This document shows, piece by piece, positions 31,641 through 54,539 of a stretch of DNA of 64,000 bases. The position numbers were made by a program, and so were the translations under genes. The stretch's first letter is position 1; every line of letters begins with the position of its first letter. The notes beneath the pieces are model-generated. The model worked only from the letters and a program-made list of their open reading frames with translations, had not been told where the DNA came from and did not search any database. The DNA is from Bacteroidia bacterium (GTDB lineage: Bacteria > Bacteroidota > Bacteroidia > SpSt-205): the NCBI GenBank assembly GCA_026414975.1, contig JAOAHZ010000008.1, positions 1 to 64,000 of the forward strand. Direction: 5' to 3'.

Positions 31641-32864
31641 CTATCCCGCCAATCTCAAGGGAGCCAAGCGAGCTCTTACCATTTCCTCCGTAACCTCTAC
31701 ATGCGCTCCGGAAGGGCGCTGATACAAAACATCCTCCAGCACCGTCTCCATCAGACTGCGCAAGGCCCGAGCCCCTGTGCCAAGGGATAAAGCCTCTTGG
31801 GCGATAAGTCTCAGAGCACCTTCCGTAAAGCTGAGTGTTATGTTATCCCAGGCGAGAAGCTGTTGGTACTGCTTCACCAGGGCGTGGCGCGGCTCAGTAA
31901 GGATGCGAAAAAGCGCTGTCTCATCCAACGGCTCCATCGCCGCAATCACAGGCAAGCGTCCTACAAACTCAGGTATCAACCCAAATCGCCGCAAATCTTC
32001 GGGCTGGACGTACGCATAGAGCGATTCTGAGGGGCTCTCGGCCAGCTCCCTTCTGCGAAAGCCTATGGTCTGCTTGGAGAGACGCCGAGCAATAATCTTA
32101 TCCAGTCCTTCAAAGGCTCCCCCACAAATGAAAAGAATATTTTCCGTATTGACTGGAATAAAGCTTTGCTCAGGATGTTTTCGTCCACCTTTTGGCGGCA
32201 CATTAGCAACCGTACCTTCTAAGAGCTTCAGTAGAGCTTGCTGAACTCCCTCGCCCCCCACATCTCGTGTCAGGGAAGGATTTTCAGATTTTCGGGCTAT
32301 CTTATCAATTTCGTCAATATAGACGATACCTATCTGAGCAGATTCCACATCGTATTCAGCAGCTTGGAGAAGCCTCACTAAAACATTCTCTACGTCTTCC
32401 CCTACATATCCAGCTTCGGTTAGAGTCGTCGCATCGGCGATAGCAAAAGGGACTTTGAGATACTCAGCGATGGTACGAGCTATGAGGGTTTTGCCTGTTC
32501 CCGTAGGACCGATGAGGAGGACATTGCTCTTTTCTACGCGGACGGCGGGGGATGACTCTCTTTTTTCTAGCAAGGAAGCGATTCGCCGATAGTGGTTATA
32601 AACGGCGATAGCTATCTTACGCTTAGCGGATTCTTGGCCGATGATATACTCGTCCAAATGAGCTTTGATCTGAGCGGGAGAGGTAGGAGGCATTTTCCAT
32701 CCTCGCAAACGGCGACTGCGGCGCAGCTCTTGACTAGCAGCCTCATGGATGTGGGTAGCGCAGTCTATACATATGAATGCCTCTCGGATGGGAGACTGTA
32801 CTAAAGGCACTTGCCCACCTGAGCGACCACAGAAATCGCATGAGGGTGCTTTAGCGCTGTCCAT
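31641..32864 (-). CDS. clpX: ATP-dependent Clp protease ATP-binding subunit ClpX
   Basis: 407 residues from the ATG at 32864; the frame opens earlier at 32900 but the family start fits [13 protein letters not shown]. Zinc-binding N-domain with CDFC and CIDC pairs (about 9-40), Walker A GPTGTGKT (about 120), Walker [11 protein letters not shown], and the substrate-loop region ending with TGARALRS. It unfolds tagged proteins for ClpP. Its start overlaps the clpP end by 14 bases; it is last in the tRNA-tig-clpP-clpX unit. Confidence 0.96.
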
Positions 32865-33558
32865 CGCCAGCAAAGAGCTTCGTCGGACGAAGCACCTCAT
32901 CTACCAAGCCATACGCCTGAGCTTCATCGGCTCGCATCCAGTAGTCTCGGTCGGAGTCTTTCCAGATTTTCTCATAAGGCTGACCTGTATGAAAAGCCAA
33001 GATTTCGTACAACTCCCGCTTGATCTTTTGTATCTCGGCATGTACGATTTCTATATCAGAGGCTTGTCCTTGGACGCCTCCTAAGGGCTGATGTATCATG
33101 ACTCGGGCGTGAGGCAGGGCAGCTCGCTTGCCTTTAGTTCCCGCTGCCAAAAGCACCGCGGCCATAGAAGCCGCCATACCCGTGCAGATGGTATTGACAT
33201 CGGGGCGCACATACTGCATCACATCGTAGATACTTAACCCATCATAAACAGAGCCTCCCGGCGAGTTGATATAAATAAAAATATCTCGCTTTGGGTCAGC
33301 CGACTCCAAGAATAGAAGCTGAGCATTGACAATATTGGCAATTTGGCCATCTATAGGATACCCAAGGAAAATGATCCTATCCATCATAAGCCGAGAAAAA
33401 ACATCCATGACAGCGATATTGAGCTGCCTTTCTTCGATGATATTGGGGGTTAGATTGTAAAAGGAGCTACGCAGTCGGGCCTCGTACTGGTCTATGCGCA
33501 GACTTTCTATCCCCAGATGACGCACAGCATAACGGCGAAACTCGTCTTGAGGTGTCAT
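32851..33558 (-). CDS. clpP: ATP-dependent Clp protease proteolytic subunit
   Basis: 235-residue serine peptidase. Catalytic Ser131 in GMAASMAA and His156 in VMIHQPLGG are clear, with [12 protein letters not shown] for substrate binding. The N-terminal 40 residues before the usual start of the mature protein are somewhat longer than in E. coli and may be a propeptide. The start overlaps the tig stop by four bases (ATGA), and the end overlaps clpX. Confidence 0.96.
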
Positions 33559-34889
33559 AGGGTGTAAAGTAAAATCAATTTTAGAGGGAGTAAGTGTTCC
33601 GTTGGTTCCCCAAACTTTTCCTTCAGAAAGGTCTCTAACCGCTGCAGCTGGAGACCCCGACGAAGGCTACTCTCGTTTCTCTCTAACAAACTGGCGATAA
33701 ACTTATCTCTGGCAGCTTCAGACTCCCTGAGAAGGCTTAGAAACTTTTGCGATTCTTCGGATATATCGCCCACCTTTTGAATATTCTCCCATATAGTCTC
33801 CTGAAGCTCCGCCTGACTCACCTGAAGAGCAGGCTCCGTAGCTACGAGATTTTGAAACAAGAGCTCCCAGGCTAATTCCTGCTGAAACTCTGTGTAATCT
33901 AACCTCTCGCCATTAGCCTGCGAACGAGAAGCCAGGTAGAGAATGTATAAGTACTGAGCAATATCAGAAGGAATGGTTATGTCTGCGGCATGGAGAAGAC
34001 GATTTTTTAGAAGGCGACCATTGAGGTCTCGTAAGGCTTTATGGACATGGTGATGGAGGAGTTTCTGCCACTGCTCCTGAGGTGCAAAGTCTGGGTTTTC
34101 GTGGAAGTGCAGCTTCTCCTCTGACGCTTCTAAAGAGAGCGGGATAGCTGAGGCAGCAGCCGTCAGAGTCAGCTTAGTCTCCTCAGCAGTAATAGGCGAG
34201 TACTCTGGATAGTAGACGCGAATGTACTCTATGTAAGAACTCAGAACTTGGGGTGGAACTTCAAATGTGTCGCCCACCTTATGCCCTGCCAAGTACCGCC
34301 AAGGGAAAGGCTCTATAAACGAATTCCATCTCAGTTGGAGAGGTATGCCCCCTTCCTTCGGTTTCCAGAGAAGATGCAGGAGAACAAATCGATCGGCAGG
34401 AAAAAACTCGGGTAGCACTTCCAGCTTTTCCAGGCGCCCGAGAATAATCTGGATATAACGCTGAAAGATGCTCAAGTCATCGGGGGCCTCTTGATAGGCA
34501 TAACGCACGAGGGATACTGGTTTCTGAATAAGGGCTTCTTGAGCTACAACCAGAGCTCGGAAAGTGTAGACGTAGTCCGCCAAAGGAGGCTTAACTTGAT
34601 AGGTTTCGGGCGTGCGCTGATGAAGCGGATACTGAAAGAGCTGCTTATCTCCCAGAAGCTCCTTGAGGGCCTTCATAAATCTATCGGCAAGCAGTTGAGA
34701 CAAAACCTCCTCGCCATAGCGCCCCATGATGACATCGCTGGGCACCTGACCCGGACGAAAGCCAGGCAAGGTCAGCTCTCGTCGCAGCTCTCGGATTCTA
34801 TGCCTATACGCTTCGGCATAAGCCGAAGCGGGAATATGGATAGTTCCTTCGGCTAAGTATGGCTTAGGGAAGTGGATGGAGGATTCCAA
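33555..34889 (-). CDS. tig: Trigger factor, ribosome-associated chaperone
   Basis: 444 residues. The N-terminal ribosome-binding domain has the signature [10 protein letters not shown] (about 39-48); the C-terminal chaperone part is helical. The middle region does not show a clear FKBP-type prolyl isomerase motif, so that domain is divergent or degenerate. The only start that keeps the N-domain complete is TTG at 34889; no ATG occurs until well after the signature. This TTG is just 1 base beyond the 3' end of tRNA-Leu, so tRNA 3' processing would give an almost leaderless mRNA. It overlaps clpP by four bases. Confidence 0.88.
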
Positions 34890-34890
34890 G

Positions 34891-34972
34891 TGCGGATGGA
34901 GGGACTCGAACCCTCAACCCCAGAGGGACCAGATCCTAAGTCTGGCGCGTCTGCCAATTCCGCCACATCCGC
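34891..34972 (-). tRNA. tRNA-Leu (anticodon TAG)
   Basis: 82-nt class II tRNA on the minus strand: acceptor GCGGATG/CATCCGC, anticodon stem CCAGA/TCTGG with loop CTTAGGA (anticodon TAG), a long variable arm TCCCTCTGGGGTTGA, T arm GAGGG-TTCGAGT-CCCTC, discriminator A. No encoded CCA. It lies 3 bases after tRNA-Arg and 1 base before the tig start codon. Confidence 0.96.
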
Positions 34973-34975
34973 CTA

Positions 34976-35048
34976 TGGCACCGGCGGGACTCGAACCCAC
35001 ATTTGGAGTTTAGGAAACTCCCGTTCTATCCAGTTGAACTACGGCGCC
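34976..35048 (-). tRNA. tRNA-Arg (anticodon CCT)
   Basis: 73-nt cloverleaf on the minus strand: acceptor GGCGCCG/CGGTGCC (one G-U), anticodon stem GGAGT/ACTCC with loop TTCCTAA (anticodon CCT, reads AGG), T loop TTCGAGT, discriminator A. It is the first gene after the palindromic promoter. Confidence 0.95.
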
Positions 35049-35064
35049 TACCTTTGCAAAGGTA
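35049..35064. promoter_or_regulatory. Palindromic two-way promoter, TACCTTTG joined to its complement
   Basis: TACCTTTGCAAAGGTA is a perfect 16-bp palindrome formed by two opposed -7 boxes. The plus-strand box (35049-35056) serves the oxygenase gene whose ATG starts at 35064, inside the palindrome's last base. The minus-strand box (35057-35064) serves tRNA-Arg, whose 5' end is the next base after the palindrome. Confidence 0.7.
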
Positions 35065-36023
35065 TGGAAAACCTGCCACTTTTAGACCTGAGGCAGTTTC
35101 AGGAAGGCGATTTTAAGCAGAAGTGGCACTTTGTAGAGGCCTTAGGAGCGGCCTTCTCGGAGATTGGGTTCGTACTGATTGAGCACCACCTTGTTTCCCC
35201 CGCCCTCCAACAAGCGATGTATGAGAAGGTTCAGCAGTTTTTCGCCTTACCTGCAGAGGTAAAGGCCCAGTACATCATCCCGGGCACAGCAGGTCAGCGA
35301 GGCTACACCCCGCCTAATCAAGAACACGCTAAAGGTCATTCCGTTCCAGATCTCAAAGAATTCTTTCACATCGGACCCGAGATCGAGGACCCTACCGACC
35401 CCCTATACGAGCGACTGCCTCGGAATGTATGGGTCAAGGAGATACCAGGCTTCCGAGAAACCTTTCTGTCAGCTTATGCGAAGTTTATGGAGACGGGACG
35501 CTATCTCCTGCGAGCTATAGCTTTGTATCTTGGATTAGAAGAGGGATATTTTGATGAGCTTATTAGGAATGGGCCGAGCTTGCTGCGCCTGCTTCATTAC
35601 TATCCCCTTTCCGAAGGGATACCCATTCCAGAGGGAGCTACTCGCGCCGCCGAGCATGAAGACATCAACCTTATCACCCTCCTTATCGGCGCCAGCGCAG
35701 AAGGGTTAGAAGTGCTTACACGAGAGGGACACTGGCTTGCTCCGAAAGTAGAACCCCACCAGATGGTCATTAATGTGGGGGACATGCTCCAGCGCCTCAC
35801 TAATAATAAGCTGCGGAGTACCACCCACCGCGTCACCTTGCCTCCACCTGATAAGCGGCATCTGCCAAGGTATTCTATTCCGTTTTTTCTACACCCCCGC
35901 CCAGAAGTCAGCCTCGCCTGCCTCCCCTCTTGTATAGACGAGCTCCATCCTAAGGCTTACCCCGATGCCACTGCCGAAGAGTACCTTAACGAAAGACTCG
36001 TGGAGCTTGGACTCAAGAAGTAG
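35064..36023 (+). CDS. 2-oxoglutarate/Fe(II)-dependent oxygenase, isopenicillin N synthase-like
   Basis: 319 residues from ATG 35064; the longer frame to 34872 runs across both tRNAs and is not coding. The N-terminal DIOX_N region (about 5-130, LPLLDLRQF and EIGFVLIEHHLV) precedes the double-stranded beta-helix core with iron ligands HEDINL (His and Asp, about 194-196) and His in RSTTHRV (about 253), and the cosubstrate Arg in RYSIPFF. The family oxidises small molecules; the substrate cannot be told and no biosynthetic cluster surrounds it. With only 7 bases between the -7 box and the ATG, the mRNA has almost no leader. Confidence 0.85.
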   Translation: MENLPLLDLRQFQEGDFKQKWHFVEALGAAFSEIGFVLIEHHLVSPALQQAMYEKVQQFFALPAEVKAQYIIPGTAGQRGYTPPNQEHAKGHSVPDLKEFFHIGPEIEDPTDPLYERLPRNVWVKEIPGFRETFLSAYAKFMETGRYLLRAIALYLGLEEGYFDELIRNGPSLLRLLHYYPLSEGIPIPEGATRAAEHEDINLITLLIGASAEGLEVLTREGHWLAPKVEPHQMVINVGDMLQRLTNNKLRSTTHRVTLPPPDKRHLPRYSIPFFLHPRPEVSLACLPSCIDELHPKAYPDATAEEYLNERLVELGLKK

Positions 36024-36039: not shown

Positions 36040-36139
36040 TGAGGGGCGGGGGATTTGAACCAGGACTTAGGGCTGTACCTAATCCATGGCTGTATAGTAG
36101 GAAACGCAGCTTTGCGAGTACGCTTCTAGACTACCCCCC
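36040..36139 (-). other. tRNA-like element, possibly a degenerate tRNA
   Basis: On the minus strand GGGGGGT (36139-36133) can pair with GCCCCTC (36047-36041), followed by A as discriminator. A canonical T loop TTCAAAT is followed by CCCCC, and TAGTCTAG near the 5' end resembles a D arm. The 5' strand of the T stem does not match (only two pairs), and no normal anticodon arm is visible. Inside are a hairpin GGATTAGG/CCTAAGTCC (one bulge) and CGCA/TGCG. It begins 2 bases after the DUF1573 stop. It may be a decayed tRNA, a tRNA with an insertion, or another small RNA. Confidence 0.35.
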
Positions 36140-36141
36140 AC

Positions 36142-41824: not shown

Positions 41825-42817
41825 CTAAGCCGCATGAATCACATTTCGTAGATGTCCCAACTCAGTCCCCGTAAGAACCACCTCATCGCCTATGCGAAGC
41901 CAAACTTCAGCAGCGGTAGGGTCTGCTCGTCTGCGCGTTCCATTTATCTCCAAAAAGCAGCCAGTGCCCACCGTACCTGAGCCGATGACCTCTCCCGGAT
42001 AGATTTCCACACCGTAGCTCACTCGCTCCAAAATCTCTGCAAAAGTCCAACTCATATCGGAAAGGTATCCATAGCTGACAGGCTGACCGTTCACTTCGGC
42101 TTGGAGAGCCAGTCTGTAGGTCCTCCCTACATGACCTGAGGGGGGGGCTGTCTGATACGGAACTAAATCCTCTGGGGTAACTACCCACGGCCCTAAGCTG
42201 GTAGCAAAATCCTTGCCCTTGGCTGGACCCAAATTGAGTTTCATTTCTTCCATTTGGAGAGAGCGGGCACTCCAATCATTCATGAGCATGTAGCCGAAAA
42301 TGTACTCGTCGGCTTTATGGGCCGGTACATTTCGTCCAGACTTTCCCAAAATCACTGCTACCTCCAACTCAAAGTCTAACTTTTCCGTGTGACGCGACTC
42401 TACATAAATAGGTCCAGGCCCAGTGATAGCCAAGGCGTTAGAGAAGTAAAACACAGGAAACTGATCAAACTCAGGGATCATTTCTAATCCGCGGTTACGG
42501 CGAGCTGCTTCTACATGCTGACGAAAGGCATACCCATCGCGCAAGCTAAGGGGTCGCCTAACGGGGGAAAGAAGATGAACGGCTGCATAAGGCACCTGTA
42601 GCTCTCCAAAATCTCCTCTCTCATGATAGCGCCTGTGAACCCATTCTACCCAGCTCTCCCATTCCAACCGATGTCCAATATAGCTCTCTACATCCCTACA
42701 ATCAAACCGTCGTCCCAAAGCTCGTCCCACACGATTTAGGGACAGCACGAAAGCGCCTGATGAGTCCAAGATACCAAGCGACTCCTCCCCTTGCCAGATG
42801 AAACGAATAAGCTTCAT
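41825..42817 (-). CDS. Fumarylacetoacetate hydrolase-family protein
   Basis: 330 residues. The C-terminal FAH fold has the metal-binding ELEVAVILGKSGRNV (Glu of the ExE motif) and GYMLMNDWSAR (Asp), then LGPAKGKDFATSLGPWVV and GSGTVGTGC. This 330-residue form is common in Bacteroidota and probably cleaves fumarylacetoacetate to fumarate and acetoacetate, the last step of tyrosine breakdown; hmgA and hppD lie at 55849-58161. Two ATGs are near (42823 and 42817); the first leaves only 2 bases after the -7 box TACTTTTG, so the second is preferred. Confidence 0.85.
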   Translation of the reverse strand: MKLIRFIWQGEESLGILDSSGAFVLSLNRVGRALGRRFDCRDVESYIGHRLEWESWVEWVHRRYHERGDFGELQVPYAAVHLLSPVRRPLSLRDGYAFRQHVEAARRNRGLEMIPEFDQFPVFYFSNALAITGPGPIYVESRHTEKLDFELEVAVILGKSGRNVPAHKADEYIFGYMLMNDWSARSLQMEEMKLNLGPAKGKDFATSLGPWVVTPEDLVPYQTAPPSGHVGRTYRLALQAEVNGQPVSYGYLSDMSWTFAEILERVSYGVEIYPGEVIGSGTVGTGCFLEINGTRRRADPTAAEVWLRIGDEVVLTGTELGHLRNVIHAA

Positions 42818-42825
42818 GTGCATAG

Positions 42826-42970: not shown

Positions 42971-42978
42971 TATCTTTG
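42971..42978 (+). promoter_or_regulatory. -7 box TATCTTTG for the PurF-like gene and murQ
   Basis: Exact TAnnTTTG, 4 bases before the ATG at 42983. It shows that the open frame upstream to 42791 is not coding. Confidence 0.6.
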
Positions 42979-42982
42979 TTTC

Positions 42983-44845
42983 ATGTGTGGGATTGTCTGG
43001 CTGCGGCTTCTCCGTCCCTTAGAAGCCTATCCTTCCCCCGCTTGGGCTCTGAGAAAGGTTACGCTCCTACTTCAGAAACAACGGAACCGAGGCCAAGACG
43101 GAGCTGGTATTTTAACCTATAAAGCGCAATCGCCCGTAGGCAGGCCTTACTTTTATGTCAAAAAGCGCACTAAGCCTGCCCCGCCTTGGAGATTTCTCAT
43201 AGAGGATATCTGGAGTGAATGGGAAAACTGGCAAAAGGAAGGTCAGAGTCCCTACGAGTTCCCCTTTTTGGGGGAAGGGTATTTAGCCCACCTGCGGTAT
43301 GGCACCTTCAGTGGATATGGATTAGAGGATACCCATCCAGTTGTGCGGATAGGAAGCTGGCCTTCCCGTAGCCTCGCCATAGCAGGTAACTTCAACCTAA
43401 CGAATGCCGAGGAGCTCTTTCAGCGTCTCGTAGAACTCGGGCAGCATCCACTTCACCGAGGCGACACTTACACGATCGTAGAACGAATGGGGCACTTTTT
43501 AGACGAAGCGGTAGAAGAGCTCTATCAACAAGCTAAACAAGAGGGGCTTTCTAAGTTAGAGGCCAGCCAATACATTCAGCAGCGCTTCCCAGTAAGCACA
43601 TGGCTGGGTCGCAGCTCACGACGATGGGATGGGGGTTATGTGATTGCTGGGTGGATCGGGAATGGGTGGGGATTCGTCATGCGAGACCCTCTCGGGATTC
43701 GTCCAGCCTATTACTTAGCCACCCCTGACGTACTTGCTGTAGCATCTGAAGCCGCTGCCCTTCACAATGTCTTTGAAGTGCCTCCAGAAAAAGTTCAAGA
43801 ACTCCCTCCTGCTCATGCCCTTATCGTAGCACCCGATGGCACTTGGGCAATCAAGCCTTTTACCGATCCCGCTCCTAAGCCAGCTCGTTGTAGCTTTGAA
43901 CGCATATATTTCTCTCGGGGCAACTCCCCCCACATTTACACCGAGCGAAAAACTCTGGGCGCCCTCTTAGCTCATGAAATAGCTCGCGCCTTGGATTATC
44001 ACTTTGAGAACACCATTTTCACCTACATCCCTAATACCTCTCAAGCGGCCTTCTGGGGGCTGCTCAAAGAGTTAGAAAACATCCTTATCTTGCGTCAGTT
44101 CCGTCAAATCCAATCTCAGAAGCTCTCTGAAGAAGAGCTACGCACTCTGCTGCATCAGCGTATCCGAGCTGAATACTTAGTCTGGAAAGACACCCAAAGC
44201 CGAACTTTCATTTCCTCTCCTGCCCTACGGAGGGATATGTCCCGTCATGCTTACGATGTGATTTACAATATAGTACGACCTGGTAAAGATACCCTTGTCT
44301 GCTTGGATGATTCCATTGTGAGAGGGACGACGCTGCGAGAGACACTCCTCCAAACCTTGGGGCGATTGTCGCCGGCGCGACTTATTATCGCTTCTTCGGC
44401 CCCCCAGATCCGCTATCCAGACTTTTATGGAATTGATATGGCCTCTCTCCATGATCTCATTGCTTTCCAAGCTGCGATAGCCCTACTCAAAGAATACAAC
44501 TTGGGCGAAGTCCTAGACCACACCTACGCCCTCTGTCAACGCAGCTATGGGACCGACGAGTTCCTCCGGAATAACTACGTAAAAGCCATATACGCTCCTT
44601 TCACCGAAGCCCAAATAGCAGCGAAAATAGCTGAGCTGGTCCGACCACCTGATTTGTCTATTCCAGTTACCATCATCTATCAGCCCGTAGAAAATCTTCC
44701 GAAAGCGTTGCCTAATCACCGAGGCGACTGGTATTTCACAGGCAACTATCCCACTCCCGGCGGCTATAAACAGGTCAATCTGTCTTTCATGCAGTTTTAC
44801 GAGGGAAAGCTCCAAAGACGCGCTTACGAGACAGAGGTCCGATGA
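42983..44845 (+). CDS. Amidophosphoribosyltransferase-like protein
   Basis: 620 residues. The N-terminal class II glutamine amidotransferase domain begins MCGIVW, so Cys2 becomes the nucleophile after Met removal; RNRGQDGAG and the later GGYVIAGW follow as in PurF. The C-terminal phosphoribosyltransferase domain carries the PRPP loop CLDDSIVRGTT (about 435-445) after a helical insertion. It is longer than the usual 470-500-residue PurF and resembles a second, longer PurF-type protein seen in Bacteroidota; the first step of purine synthesis is likely but not proved. The start lies 4 bases after the -7 box. Its TGA overlaps the murQ ATG. Confidence 0.82.
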   Translation: MCGIVWLRLLRPLEAYPSPAWALRKVTLLLQKQRNRGQDGAGILTYKAQSPVGRPYFYVKKRTKPAPPWRFLIEDIWSEWENWQKEGQSPYEFPFLGEGYLAHLRYGTFSGYGLEDTHPVVRIGSWPSRSLAIAGNFNLTNAEELFQRLVELGQHPLHRGDTYTIVERMGHFLDEAVEELYQQAKQEGLSKLEASQYIQQRFPVSTWLGRSSRRWDGGYVIAGWIGNGWGFVMRDPLGIRPAYYLATPDVLAVASEAAALHNVFEVPPEKVQELPPAHALIVAPDGTWAIKPFTDPAPKPARCSFERIYFSRGNSPHIYTERKTLGALLAHEIARALDYHFENTIFTYIPNTSQAAFWGLLKELENILILRQFRQIQSQKLSEEELRTLLHQRIRAEYLVWKDTQSRTFISSPALRRDMSRHAYDVIYNIVRPGKDTLVCLDDSIVRGTTLRETLLQTLGRLSPARLIIASSAPQIRYPDFYGIDMASLHDLIAFQAAIALLKEYNLGEVLDHTYALCQRSYGTDEFLRNNYVKAIYAPFTEAQIAAKIAELVRPPDLSIPVTIIYQPVENLPKALPNHRGDWYFTGNYPTPGGYKQVNLSFMQFYEGKLQRRAYETEVR

Positions 44846-52483: not shown

Positions 52484-53493
52484 TCTCGTATGAAAGGGTA
52501 ATCCGTCTGGACATACACATCTTGATACAACTGATCTGGGGTCGGATAGGGACTTGCCTCCGCAAAGGCAACCGCATCGTCTACTTCTGCAGCCACCTCC
52601 TCTTCTATTTTATCTATCTCTTCTGGGGTAGCCAGGCGGTGTTCATACAGATAACTCTGAAGATGAGCCAAAGGGTCGCGCTCTTTATAGGCTTCTACTT
52701 CCTCTCGGGTACGATACTTGGCAGGGTCCGACATGGAATGCCCCCGATAGCGATATGTAAGGACTTCTAATAGGTAGGGACCTTGACCCGAGCGAGCTTG
52801 GTCTGCGGCTCGCTTCATCGCTTCATACACGGCAAACACATTCATTCCATCCACCTGTTGAGAGGGCATATCGTAGGCGCAAGCAAGTCTATAAATATCG
52901 GTCACATTAGAGCTGCGATGGACAGCGGTGCCCATAGCATACTGGTTGTTTTCGCAAACATATACCACGGGGAGACGCCAGAGCATTGCCATATTGAAGC
53001 TCTCATGAAGCATGCCTTGACGAGCCGCTCCATCCCCAAACATCGTTACACAAATCAGGTCCTCATTTCGGTACTTGATAGCAAAAGCCACACCCGTACC
53101 AATACCGATCTGCGCCCCCACAATCCCATGTCCCCCCAGGAACCGATGCTTAGCCGAAAACATATGCATAGAACCGCCCTTACCCCGAGAACAGCCCGTC
53201 TCTTTCCCCATGAGCTCAGCCAAAATAGCCCGCATGGATATACCTCGGAAATAAGCGTTTCCATGCTCTCTATAACCTGTTATCACATAGTCCTCTTTCC
53301 GAATGGCCGCTTCTATGCCCATGCCCGTAGCCTCTTGCCCAATATAGAGATGCAAAAATCCACGAATCTTCTGCTGAGTGTAGAGCTGAGCTGCCTTTTC
53401 CTCCATACGGCGCACTGCTAGCATCTGCCTATACCAATAGAGCACTTGTTCCCTCGTATAAGAGGGAGCATCCGAAGCCTTTACCTTTGCCAT
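52477..53493 (-). CDS. pdhA: Pyruvate dehydrogenase E1 component, alpha subunit
   Basis: 338 residues from ATG 53493. It binds ThDP through FGDGAARQGMLHE...NN (GDG...NN motif about 165-200) and decarboxylates pyruvate with the beta subunit, which is not in the window. RYRGHSMSDPAKYRTREE (about 249-266) matches the phosphorylation loop of mitochondrial E1-alpha: Ser253 aligns with site 1, while the site 2 serine is replaced by Lys. It overlaps the PP2C gene by 7 bases. The box TATCTTTG lies 4 bases before the ATG, so the mRNA is probably leaderless. Confidence 0.94.
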   Translation of the reverse strand: MAKVKASDAPSYTREQVLYWYRQMLAVRRMEEKAAQLYTQQKIRGFLHLYIGQEATGMGIEAAIRKEDYVITGYREHGNAYFRGISMRAILAELMGKETGCSRGKGGSMHMFSAKHRFLGGHGIVGAQIGIGTGVAFAIKYRNEDLICVTMFGDGAARQGMLHESFNMAMLWRLPVVYVCENNQYAMGTAVHRSSNVTDIYRLACAYDMPSQQVDGMNVFAVYEAMKRAADQARSGQGPYLLEVLTYRYRGHSMSDPAKYRTREEVEAYKERDPLAHLQSYLYEHRLATPEEIDKIEEEVAAEVDDAVAFAEASPYPTPDQLYQDVYVQTDYPFIREW

Positions 53494-53505
53494 GAAGCAA
53501 AGATA
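53482..53505. promoter_or_regulatory. Interlocked divergent promoters of pdhA and recF
   Basis: The minus-strand box TATCTTTG for pdhA is at 53498-53505, and the plus-strand box TACCTTTG for recF at 53482-53489 lies inside pdhA codons 2-4 (GCA AAG GTA read backwards). The boxes face apart with their start sites crossing, so each transcript begins inside the other's promoter. Confidence 0.55.
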
Positions 53506-53510
53506 CAGAA

Positions 53511-54539
53511 GTGCTTCGGGCGATTGAGCTGCACAACTTCCGGTGTTATGAGATAGGACGCTTTTATTTAGGCGAAAAAGGGACAGCATGGGTAGGACCT
53601 AATGCTTCAGGCAAAACATCTGTTCTGGAAGGCCTACAAAAAGTGGCTTTGCTGAGAGGGTTTGGCAAAGATGGAGAGATAGTACGCTGGGGGGCTTCCC
53701 AGTACCGTTTGCGCGCGCTTTGGCACAATAGCGTAGTGGAAGTGGTTTATGAGTTAGGAAAGGGAACGCGTCTCTTTTGGGACGGAGAACCTATCTATCC
53801 CCTCTCGCAGTGGATCGGGCGTCTGCCTGTGGTATCCTTGCGTCCGGGTGACTTAAACTGGATAGAAGGAAGGGCAGCTGAACGGCGACAGTGGGCCGAT
53901 AGACTCCTTAGCCAGGCTTACCCCGAGTACCTCAGCGCCCTTTCTCAGTATCAGCGTGCTTTAGAGCAGCGCAATGCCCTCCTAGCCCGTGCAGACCCCT
54001 CCCCGCAAACAGAGCTATGGGAACCTATACTCATCCGAGAAGGCATCTTTATACAGACCCTGCGTTACGAACTCAGTAAGCGGCTGTCCGAGTCTCTACA
54101 AAAGTTTTACGCTCACTTTGGCAAGGAGCCTGTTCAACTAACCTACAAGTTCTCTGTAGAGCCCCTGAAGGAGACTTGGGAAAGGGCTTGGAAGCGCTTA
54201 CGCAAAGATGAGTATAGGCTCAAACGCACCCTGATAGGCCCGCATTTGGAGGATTTCATAGTCCTTTTGTCGGGTCAACCTGCCCGAGGTTACGCTTCGG
54301 AGGGCCAGAAAAAGTCTCTGCTATTAGCCCTAAAATGGGCAGAGGTGGCTCATCTTCATCAGAAAGGATATCATCCCATCCTTTTGCTGGACGATATCGG
54401 CGAGAAGTTAGACCTCTACCGACTGAGAGCGGTAGGACATCTAAGTCGGTTAGCTTCTCAGACTTTTCTGACCGACACCGATGAAAGGCGAATTCGGGAT
54501 ATTTTTCCAGAGGTGGAGATTATTCACACCTGCAGTTAG
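53511..54539 (+). CDS. recF: DNA repair and recombination ATPase RecF
   Basis: 342 residues from GTG 53511. RecF loads RecA at gaps through RecFOR. Signs: N-terminal LHNFRCYEIG, Walker A GPNASGKTSVLE (about 29-40), the EGRAAERRQWADRLL segment typical of RecF, signature YASEGQKKSLLLALK, and Walker B LLLDDIGEKLD. An upstream ATG at 53492 is out of frame. It lies 21 bases past its -7 box. dnaA and dnaN, common neighbours elsewhere, are absent. A GC-rich hairpin follows. Confidence 0.92.
   Translation: MLRAIELHNFRCYEIGRFYLGEKGTAWVGPNASGKTSVLEGLQKVALLRGFGKDGEIVRWGASQYRLRALWHNSVVEVVYELGKGTRLFWDGEPIYPLSQWIGRLPVVSLRPGDLNWIEGRAAERRQWADRLLSQAYPEYLSALSQYQRALEQRNALLARADPSPQTELWEPILIREGIFIQTLRYELSKRLSESLQKFYAHFGKEPVQLTYKFSVEPLKETWERAWKRLRKDEYRLKRTLIGPHLEDFIVLLSGQPARGYASEGQKKSLLLALKWAEVAHLHQKGYHPILLLDDIGEKLDLYRLRAVGHLSRLASQTFLTDTDERRIRDIFPEVEIIHTCS

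Follow-up and report, generated by a model that had tools for sequence, protein, structure and literature searches.

Facing -7 boxes between a tRNA-led tig/clp unit and a 2OG-Fe(II) oxygenase gene: a predicted bidirectional promoter in a family of Bacteroidota

The 16-bp palindrome TACCTTTGCAAAGGTA was located by exact match at positions 35049-35064 of the window, the 64,000-nucleotide stretch of DNA analysed here, where it separates two divergent sets of genes. It had originally been predicted that the start codon of an oxygenase gene overlaps the last base of this palindrome and that tRNA-Arg adjoins its other end. Both contacts are present: the oxygenase ATG occupies 35064-35066 on the plus strand, with its A as the last base of the palindrome, and the 5' end of tRNA-Arg lies at 35048 on the minus strand. 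The gene on the right (35064-36023, plus strand) is an open reading frame for a 2OG-Fe(II) oxygenase of 319 amino acids, identified by Pfam matches PF14226 and PF03171. Its start is supported by a Pfam match that begins at residue 4 (DIOX_N, residues 4-125), and the best solved structural match is 3oox, a putative 2OG-Fe(II) oxygenase. The mRNA is predicted to be near-leaderless, with a 5' UTR of about 2-3 nt. Beyond the 3' end of the gene lies a tRNA-like stretch (approximately 36040-36141, minus strand) with a T-arm-like segment, GGTTCAAATCC, and a G/C-rich end; it is recognized neither by ARAGORN, with introns allowed, nor by Rfam, and is possibly a decayed tRNA.

To the left, reading from 35048 on the minus strand, the genes follow one another almost without gaps. 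The unit opens with tRNA-Arg (CCT; 34976-35048) and tRNA-Leu (TAG; 34890-34972), both assigned by ARAGORN and the Rfam tRNA model. These are followed by tig, encoding trigger factor (33555-34889; Pfam Trigger_N, with the start placed from its position in relatives), by clpP (32851-33558; Pfam CLP_protease and open reading frame), which shares 4 nt with the end of tig, and by clpX (31641-32900; NCBIfam PRK05342/TIGR00382 and open reading frame). The TTG start of tig comes 1 nt after the discriminator base of tRNA-Leu, and the ten family genomes read at this junction (loci L002-L011; here 34887-34892) have a TTG or GTG start 1-3 nt past that base. An order-level relative (L160) has an ATG 2 nt past it, and one family genome, G008, is an exception with a Shine-Dalgarno-like GGAGG and an ATG. 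Given this proximity, processing of the tRNA-Leu 3' end would release a leaderless tig mRNA, in the manner of tRNA punctuation in mitochondria.

The original prediction described the palindrome as two opposed TAnnTTTG boxes, and this reading holds on both strands: one copy occupies 35049-35056 (plus) and the other 35057-35064 (minus), facing each other with 0 nt between them. Both carry all six letters of the -7 consensus of the Bacteroidetes primary sigma factor and stand at distances from their genes that fit this role. In the promoters studied, the box spans -12 to -5 and transcription starts 4-5 nt after it (PMC6847099). On this basis, the plus-strand TACCTTTG, which lies 7 nt before the oxygenase ATG and is represented in relatives by TA[CT][CA]TT[TCA]G at the equivalent place, is predicted to direct a start at about 35061-35062. 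The minus-strand TACCTTTG, 8 nt before tRNA-Arg, would likewise direct a start at about 35052-35051 for the tRNA-Arg/tRNA-Leu/tig/clpP/clpX unit; among other leading tRNAs, a sample of ten unrelated ones from this genome (G000) and a relative (G005) all have TAnnTTTG 4-12 nt upstream. The likeness to sigma-ABfr promoters, with their -7 TAnnTTTG and -33 TTTG elements (PMC6847099, PMC7366714, PMC9723704), lies in the -7 element, which is complete in the minus box of all ten family genomes and in the plus box of four. Direct reading shows no -33 element (TTTG/TTG) where one would be expected for either box and none is evident in 148 promoters of the genus, nor is the element evident in the promoters of F. 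johnsoniae (PMC6847099).

Ten family genomes, this one and nine others, keep tRNA-Arg and the oxygenase gene as divergent neighbours; G002 has no match to the oxygenase, tig or tRNA-Arg and was left out of the locus scoring. The genomes are mostly metagenome-assembled and related by descent, so that counts of them are not independent, and the argument from conservation rests instead on the saturation of synonymous sites: at 4-fold sites of the oxygenase gene, identity among the family genomes is 0.25-0.40. Against this background, the facing boxes of nine of the ten genomes (this one and eight others) are spaced by exactly 8 and the plus box precedes the ATG by 7 nt, while the minus box stands anywhere from 8 to 24 nt from the tRNA. 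The minus box retains the full consensus in every genome, as TACCTTTG in nine and as TACTTTTG in G010. The plus box is more varied, its last four letters being TTTG (four genomes), TTCG (five) or TTAG (one), although its TA, its TT and its final G, five of the six consensus positions, are invariant. The strength of the plus box is uncertain in the six genomes that depart from TTTG. The exact palindrome is confined to this genome and its nearest relative, G004. An alignment of relatives had been proposed as a check on whether the symmetry is kept; strict symmetry is lost outside these two genomes, while the opposed boxes persist in nine of ten. Loss of the palindrome in close relatives, which had been named as grounds for refutation, is thus seen for the exact symmetry and not for the facing boxes, and it is on the boxes that the hypothesis depends. 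As far as the sequences tell, the conserved feature is a pair of facing boxes at fixed spacing and not a letter-for-letter symmetry.

Two genomes show the halves apart. The G003 boxes, each complete, are 54 bp apart, the tRNA box standing 5 nt from its tRNA and the oxygenase box, a full TAnnTTTG, at the canonical 4 nt from the ATG. G008 yielded no oxygenase gene (its assembly is 83% complete, with the region upstream of tRNA-Arg present); its tRNA-Arg has one box, TAACTTTG, and no palindrome. The halves are therefore modules, each of its own gene, and are best regarded as separate putative promoters, not as an operator.

Numbers of matches carry little of this argument. TACCTTTGCAAAGGTA occurs once in the whole 2.2-Mb genome; the expected number of matches to TANNTTTGCAAANNTA is 0.01 in the 64-kb window and about 0.25 in 2.2 Mb, the latter figure obtained by scaling the per-spacing rate, so that a single match per genome is not far from chance. 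We reject chance because the arrangement is conserved at saturated divergence and recurs at other loci. A search of 12 family genomes gave 16 sites for a version with the boxes at spacing 9, TANNTTTGNCAAANNTA, and none for the reversed pattern; 14 of the 16 belong to two divergent gene pairs, one formed by recQ and a kdsD-like gene (SIS/CBS domains by Pfam) and the other by recA and a fumarylacetoacetate hydrolase (FAH) gene. These sites are mostly orthologs and hence represent few independent events; the recurrence is strong because three different gene pairs are involved and each is conserved. Between recQ and the kdsD-like gene, TACCTTTG-N(1-2)-CAAAGATA is present in all 11 family genomes that have the gene. 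Between recA and FAH, TAYCTTTGNCAAAGGTA is present in G003, G005, G006, G008 and G009, where the palindrome overlaps both start codons (CATAYCTTTGNCAAAGGTATG). The FAH gene of the present genome (window positions 41825-42823) and its recA stand beside other genes, and each carries a single box and no palindrome. Outside the family there is no enrichment over the reversed-pattern control (8 genomes with a match, 13 for the control). The palindrome is therefore a feature of this group, and the idea of a Bacteroidia-wide feature was rejected. A regulon of near-copies was also rejected: besides the original there are five with at most two mismatches, placed inside reading frames or at one-sided gene starts. 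Elsewhere in the window, at 53482-53505, boxes at spacing 16 face each other between a leaderless pyruvate dehydrogenase E1-like gene (minus strand) and a recF-like gene (plus strand, GTG at 53511), both named by reading their sequences, and the predicted starts nearly coincide.

Statistics at the genome scale drew on stretches of approximately 0.75 Mb of this genome and 0.4 Mb of G005. An ATG exactly 4 nt after TAnnTTTG occurs 27 times in 353 kb of this genome (4 expected) and 36 times in 400 kb of G005 (3.5 expected). The excess spans 3-9 nt and the oxygenase gene, at 7 nt, falls inside it. In 585 kb from other Bacteroidota the sharp 4-nt peak is absent and the starts are spread, most at about 15-25 nt. 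Since transcription begins 4-5 nt past the box, the mRNAs from many promoters of the genus should have no leader or almost none; box 42971-42978, with an ATG at 42983, is an example from the window. Judging from these distances, leaderless mRNAs appear to be widespread in the genus, unlike in the Bacteroidetes studied previously. There, leaderless mRNAs make up 5.5% in F. psychrophilum (PMC9723704) and 5' UTRs of less than 10 nt about 3.7% (PMC7366714), and in a survey of 37 Bacteroidetes/Chlorobi genomes leaderless genes were rare, with one genome at 2.4% (PMC3160421). The right half of the palindrome was also considered as a Shine-Dalgarno or other translation signal before the ATG. This was rejected: AGG occurs in 5 of 40 (G000) and 7 of 26 (G005) near-leaderless genes that have 6-8 nt between box and ATG, and in G003 it is GGGG that precedes the oxygenase ATG.

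The arrangement at 35049-35064 most likely works like a bidirectional promoter; what the DNA itself shows of this predicted core is the boxes, their spacing, conservation and recurrence, and the natural separations. Bidirectional promoters of prokaryotes likewise have a short, pseudo-symmetrical core between divergent genes (PMC12825309), and here core elements on opposite strands abut between divergent genes, at spacing 8 in nine of ten genomes. The symmetry of the E. coli cores resides in a single -10 element used in both directions, whereas here two complete -7 boxes abut with no shared bases. TAnnTTTG is not self-symmetrical, so that here two whole boxes abut instead. The present case differs further in having a tRNA-led operon on one side and a nearly leaderless mRNA on the other, and the latter brings the start codon into contact with the promoter box of the opposite direction. 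Common start-site distances in E. coli are 18, 10 and 23 bp (PMC12825309); the separation predicted here, 9-11 bp, approximates the 10-bp class.

We consider it quite probable that the two boxes belong to two promoters in use, which share the core at 35049-35064 and are read by the Bacteroidetes primary sigma factor. Depending on the orientation in which it binds, RNA polymerase would start either the tRNA-Arg/tRNA-Leu/tig/clpP/clpX unit, near 35051, or the near-leaderless oxygenase mRNA, near 35062. The open complexes would melt overlapping DNA, approximately 35049-35062 for the plus direction and 35064-35051 for the minus direction. From this geometry we infer that one DNA molecule can hold only one open complex at a time. 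In E. coli, polymerase binds such cores in two mutually exclusive orientations, with steric exclusion between them; there is no competition at basal activity, and the weaker side is repressed only when the other direction is strongly activated (PMC12825309). The original prediction that polymerase can hardly serve both directions at once would accordingly hold for a single copy of the DNA. Its extension to mutually exclusive expression of the two genes goes beyond the evidence, since in E. coli basal activity is too low for competition (PMC12825309).

If the two directions do compete, the contest is likely to be uneven. Scored with a matrix built from 186 promoters of the genus, which gives relative values, the minus box outscores the plus box in ten out of ten genomes (Wilcoxon p=0.002, a guide only as the rows are related). 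Traffic on the tRNA side is therefore likely to limit the oxygenase, and the degeneracy of the plus box in six genomes also points to a bias towards the tRNA side and not to an even switch. Most likely, judging from these scores, the tRNA/tig/clp side would limit the oxygenase during fast growth, as a bias rather than a clean alternation. That the overlap has a regulatory effect at all is plausible, though we would stop short of calling it probable.

The alternative that weighs most with us shares this anatomy and denies only the coupling: two working promoters may have been packed together by genome compaction, too weak to interfere with each other and with no regulatory consequence of their overlap. 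Divergent leaderless promoters packed close together are common in the genus, G003 manages without an overlap and the five E. coli bidirectional promoters had basal activities too low for competition (PMC12825309). Packing alone does not readily account for a spacing that stays fixed in nine genomes while the flanking distances change freely, or for an oxygenase gene that accepts a non-canonical 7 nt from box to ATG and so keeps the overlap. Similarly, the recQ/kdsD-like boxes stay 9-10 apart though both leaders are long enough to allow drift. We regard compaction without consequence as a serious possibility, if not the expected outcome.

That only the tRNA-side box works, the other having decayed or arisen by accident and the oxygenase being expressed by other means, seems improbable. 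Six of the ten genomes do have TTCG or TTAG in the plus box, and the minus box is never degraded. Nevertheless, five of its six consensus positions are invariant at saturated divergence, TTCG-type boxes in G005 show their own excess of ATG at 4 nt (7 against 1.4 expected) and the G003 oxygenase has a full box at the canonical distance. An operator for a dimeric repressor or activator of both genes, for example an SOS-type regulator, has in its favour the perfect dyad in this genome, the near-copies elsewhere and the presence of recA and recQ among genes with a similar palindrome, as with the LexA-like SOS operators of Bacteroidetes, palindromes before recA and other repair genes (PMC8565304), but we consider it highly unlikely and have largely rejected it: the half-sites are 8, 9 or 10 apart, a variation seen between recQ orthologs too and hard for a rigid dimer to accommodate, symmetry is broken in most genomes with each box still readable, the halves lie 54 bp apart in G003, the recA of this genome, beside another gene, has no palindrome, which thus tracks neighbourhood and not gene identity, and the known motifs, with their fixed dyad spacing (GGA-N5-TCC or CTAA-N5-TTAG; PMC8565304), are not matched.

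Bidirectional promoters are already known for sigma factors of the E. coli sigma70 type, where the -10 element is nearly symmetrical, and what is new here is a variant for the Bacteroidetes sigma factor; our literature search found no report joining bidirectional promoters to the Bacteroidetes -7 box. Three unrelated gene pairs conserve this layout of two whole, individually asymmetrical boxes abutting at a fixed spacing. Firstly, because some relatives have the boxes apart or lack one of the genes, competition between polymerases can be tested by simple comparison. Secondly, if the coupling is real, a tRNA-led chaperone/protease operon would be tied to an oxygenase through the geometry of the DNA alone. 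A more ambitious version of the preferred reading is doubtful in our view, namely that double -7-box palindromes form a regulatory device of this family, in which traffic from the growth-linked tRNA/tig/clpPX side would set the opening frequency of the oxygenase promoter, and likewise at recQ/kdsD-like and recA/FAH, with no transcription factor involved.

Two further observations concern related arrangements. The form CAAANNTANNTTTG, in which the boxes overlap by a shared TA, occurs 9 times in 1.34 Mb (other Bacteroidota loci together with G000 and G005) against about 3 expected from base composition, and would be the closer Bacteroidetes analogue of the symmetrical -10 element. In a distant Bacteroidia genome (L261, near position 1500), TAACTTTGTCAAAGTTA lies between divergent HU-like and mutY-like genes, named by reading their sequences; from this site, the facing-box arrangement may arise independently elsewhere.
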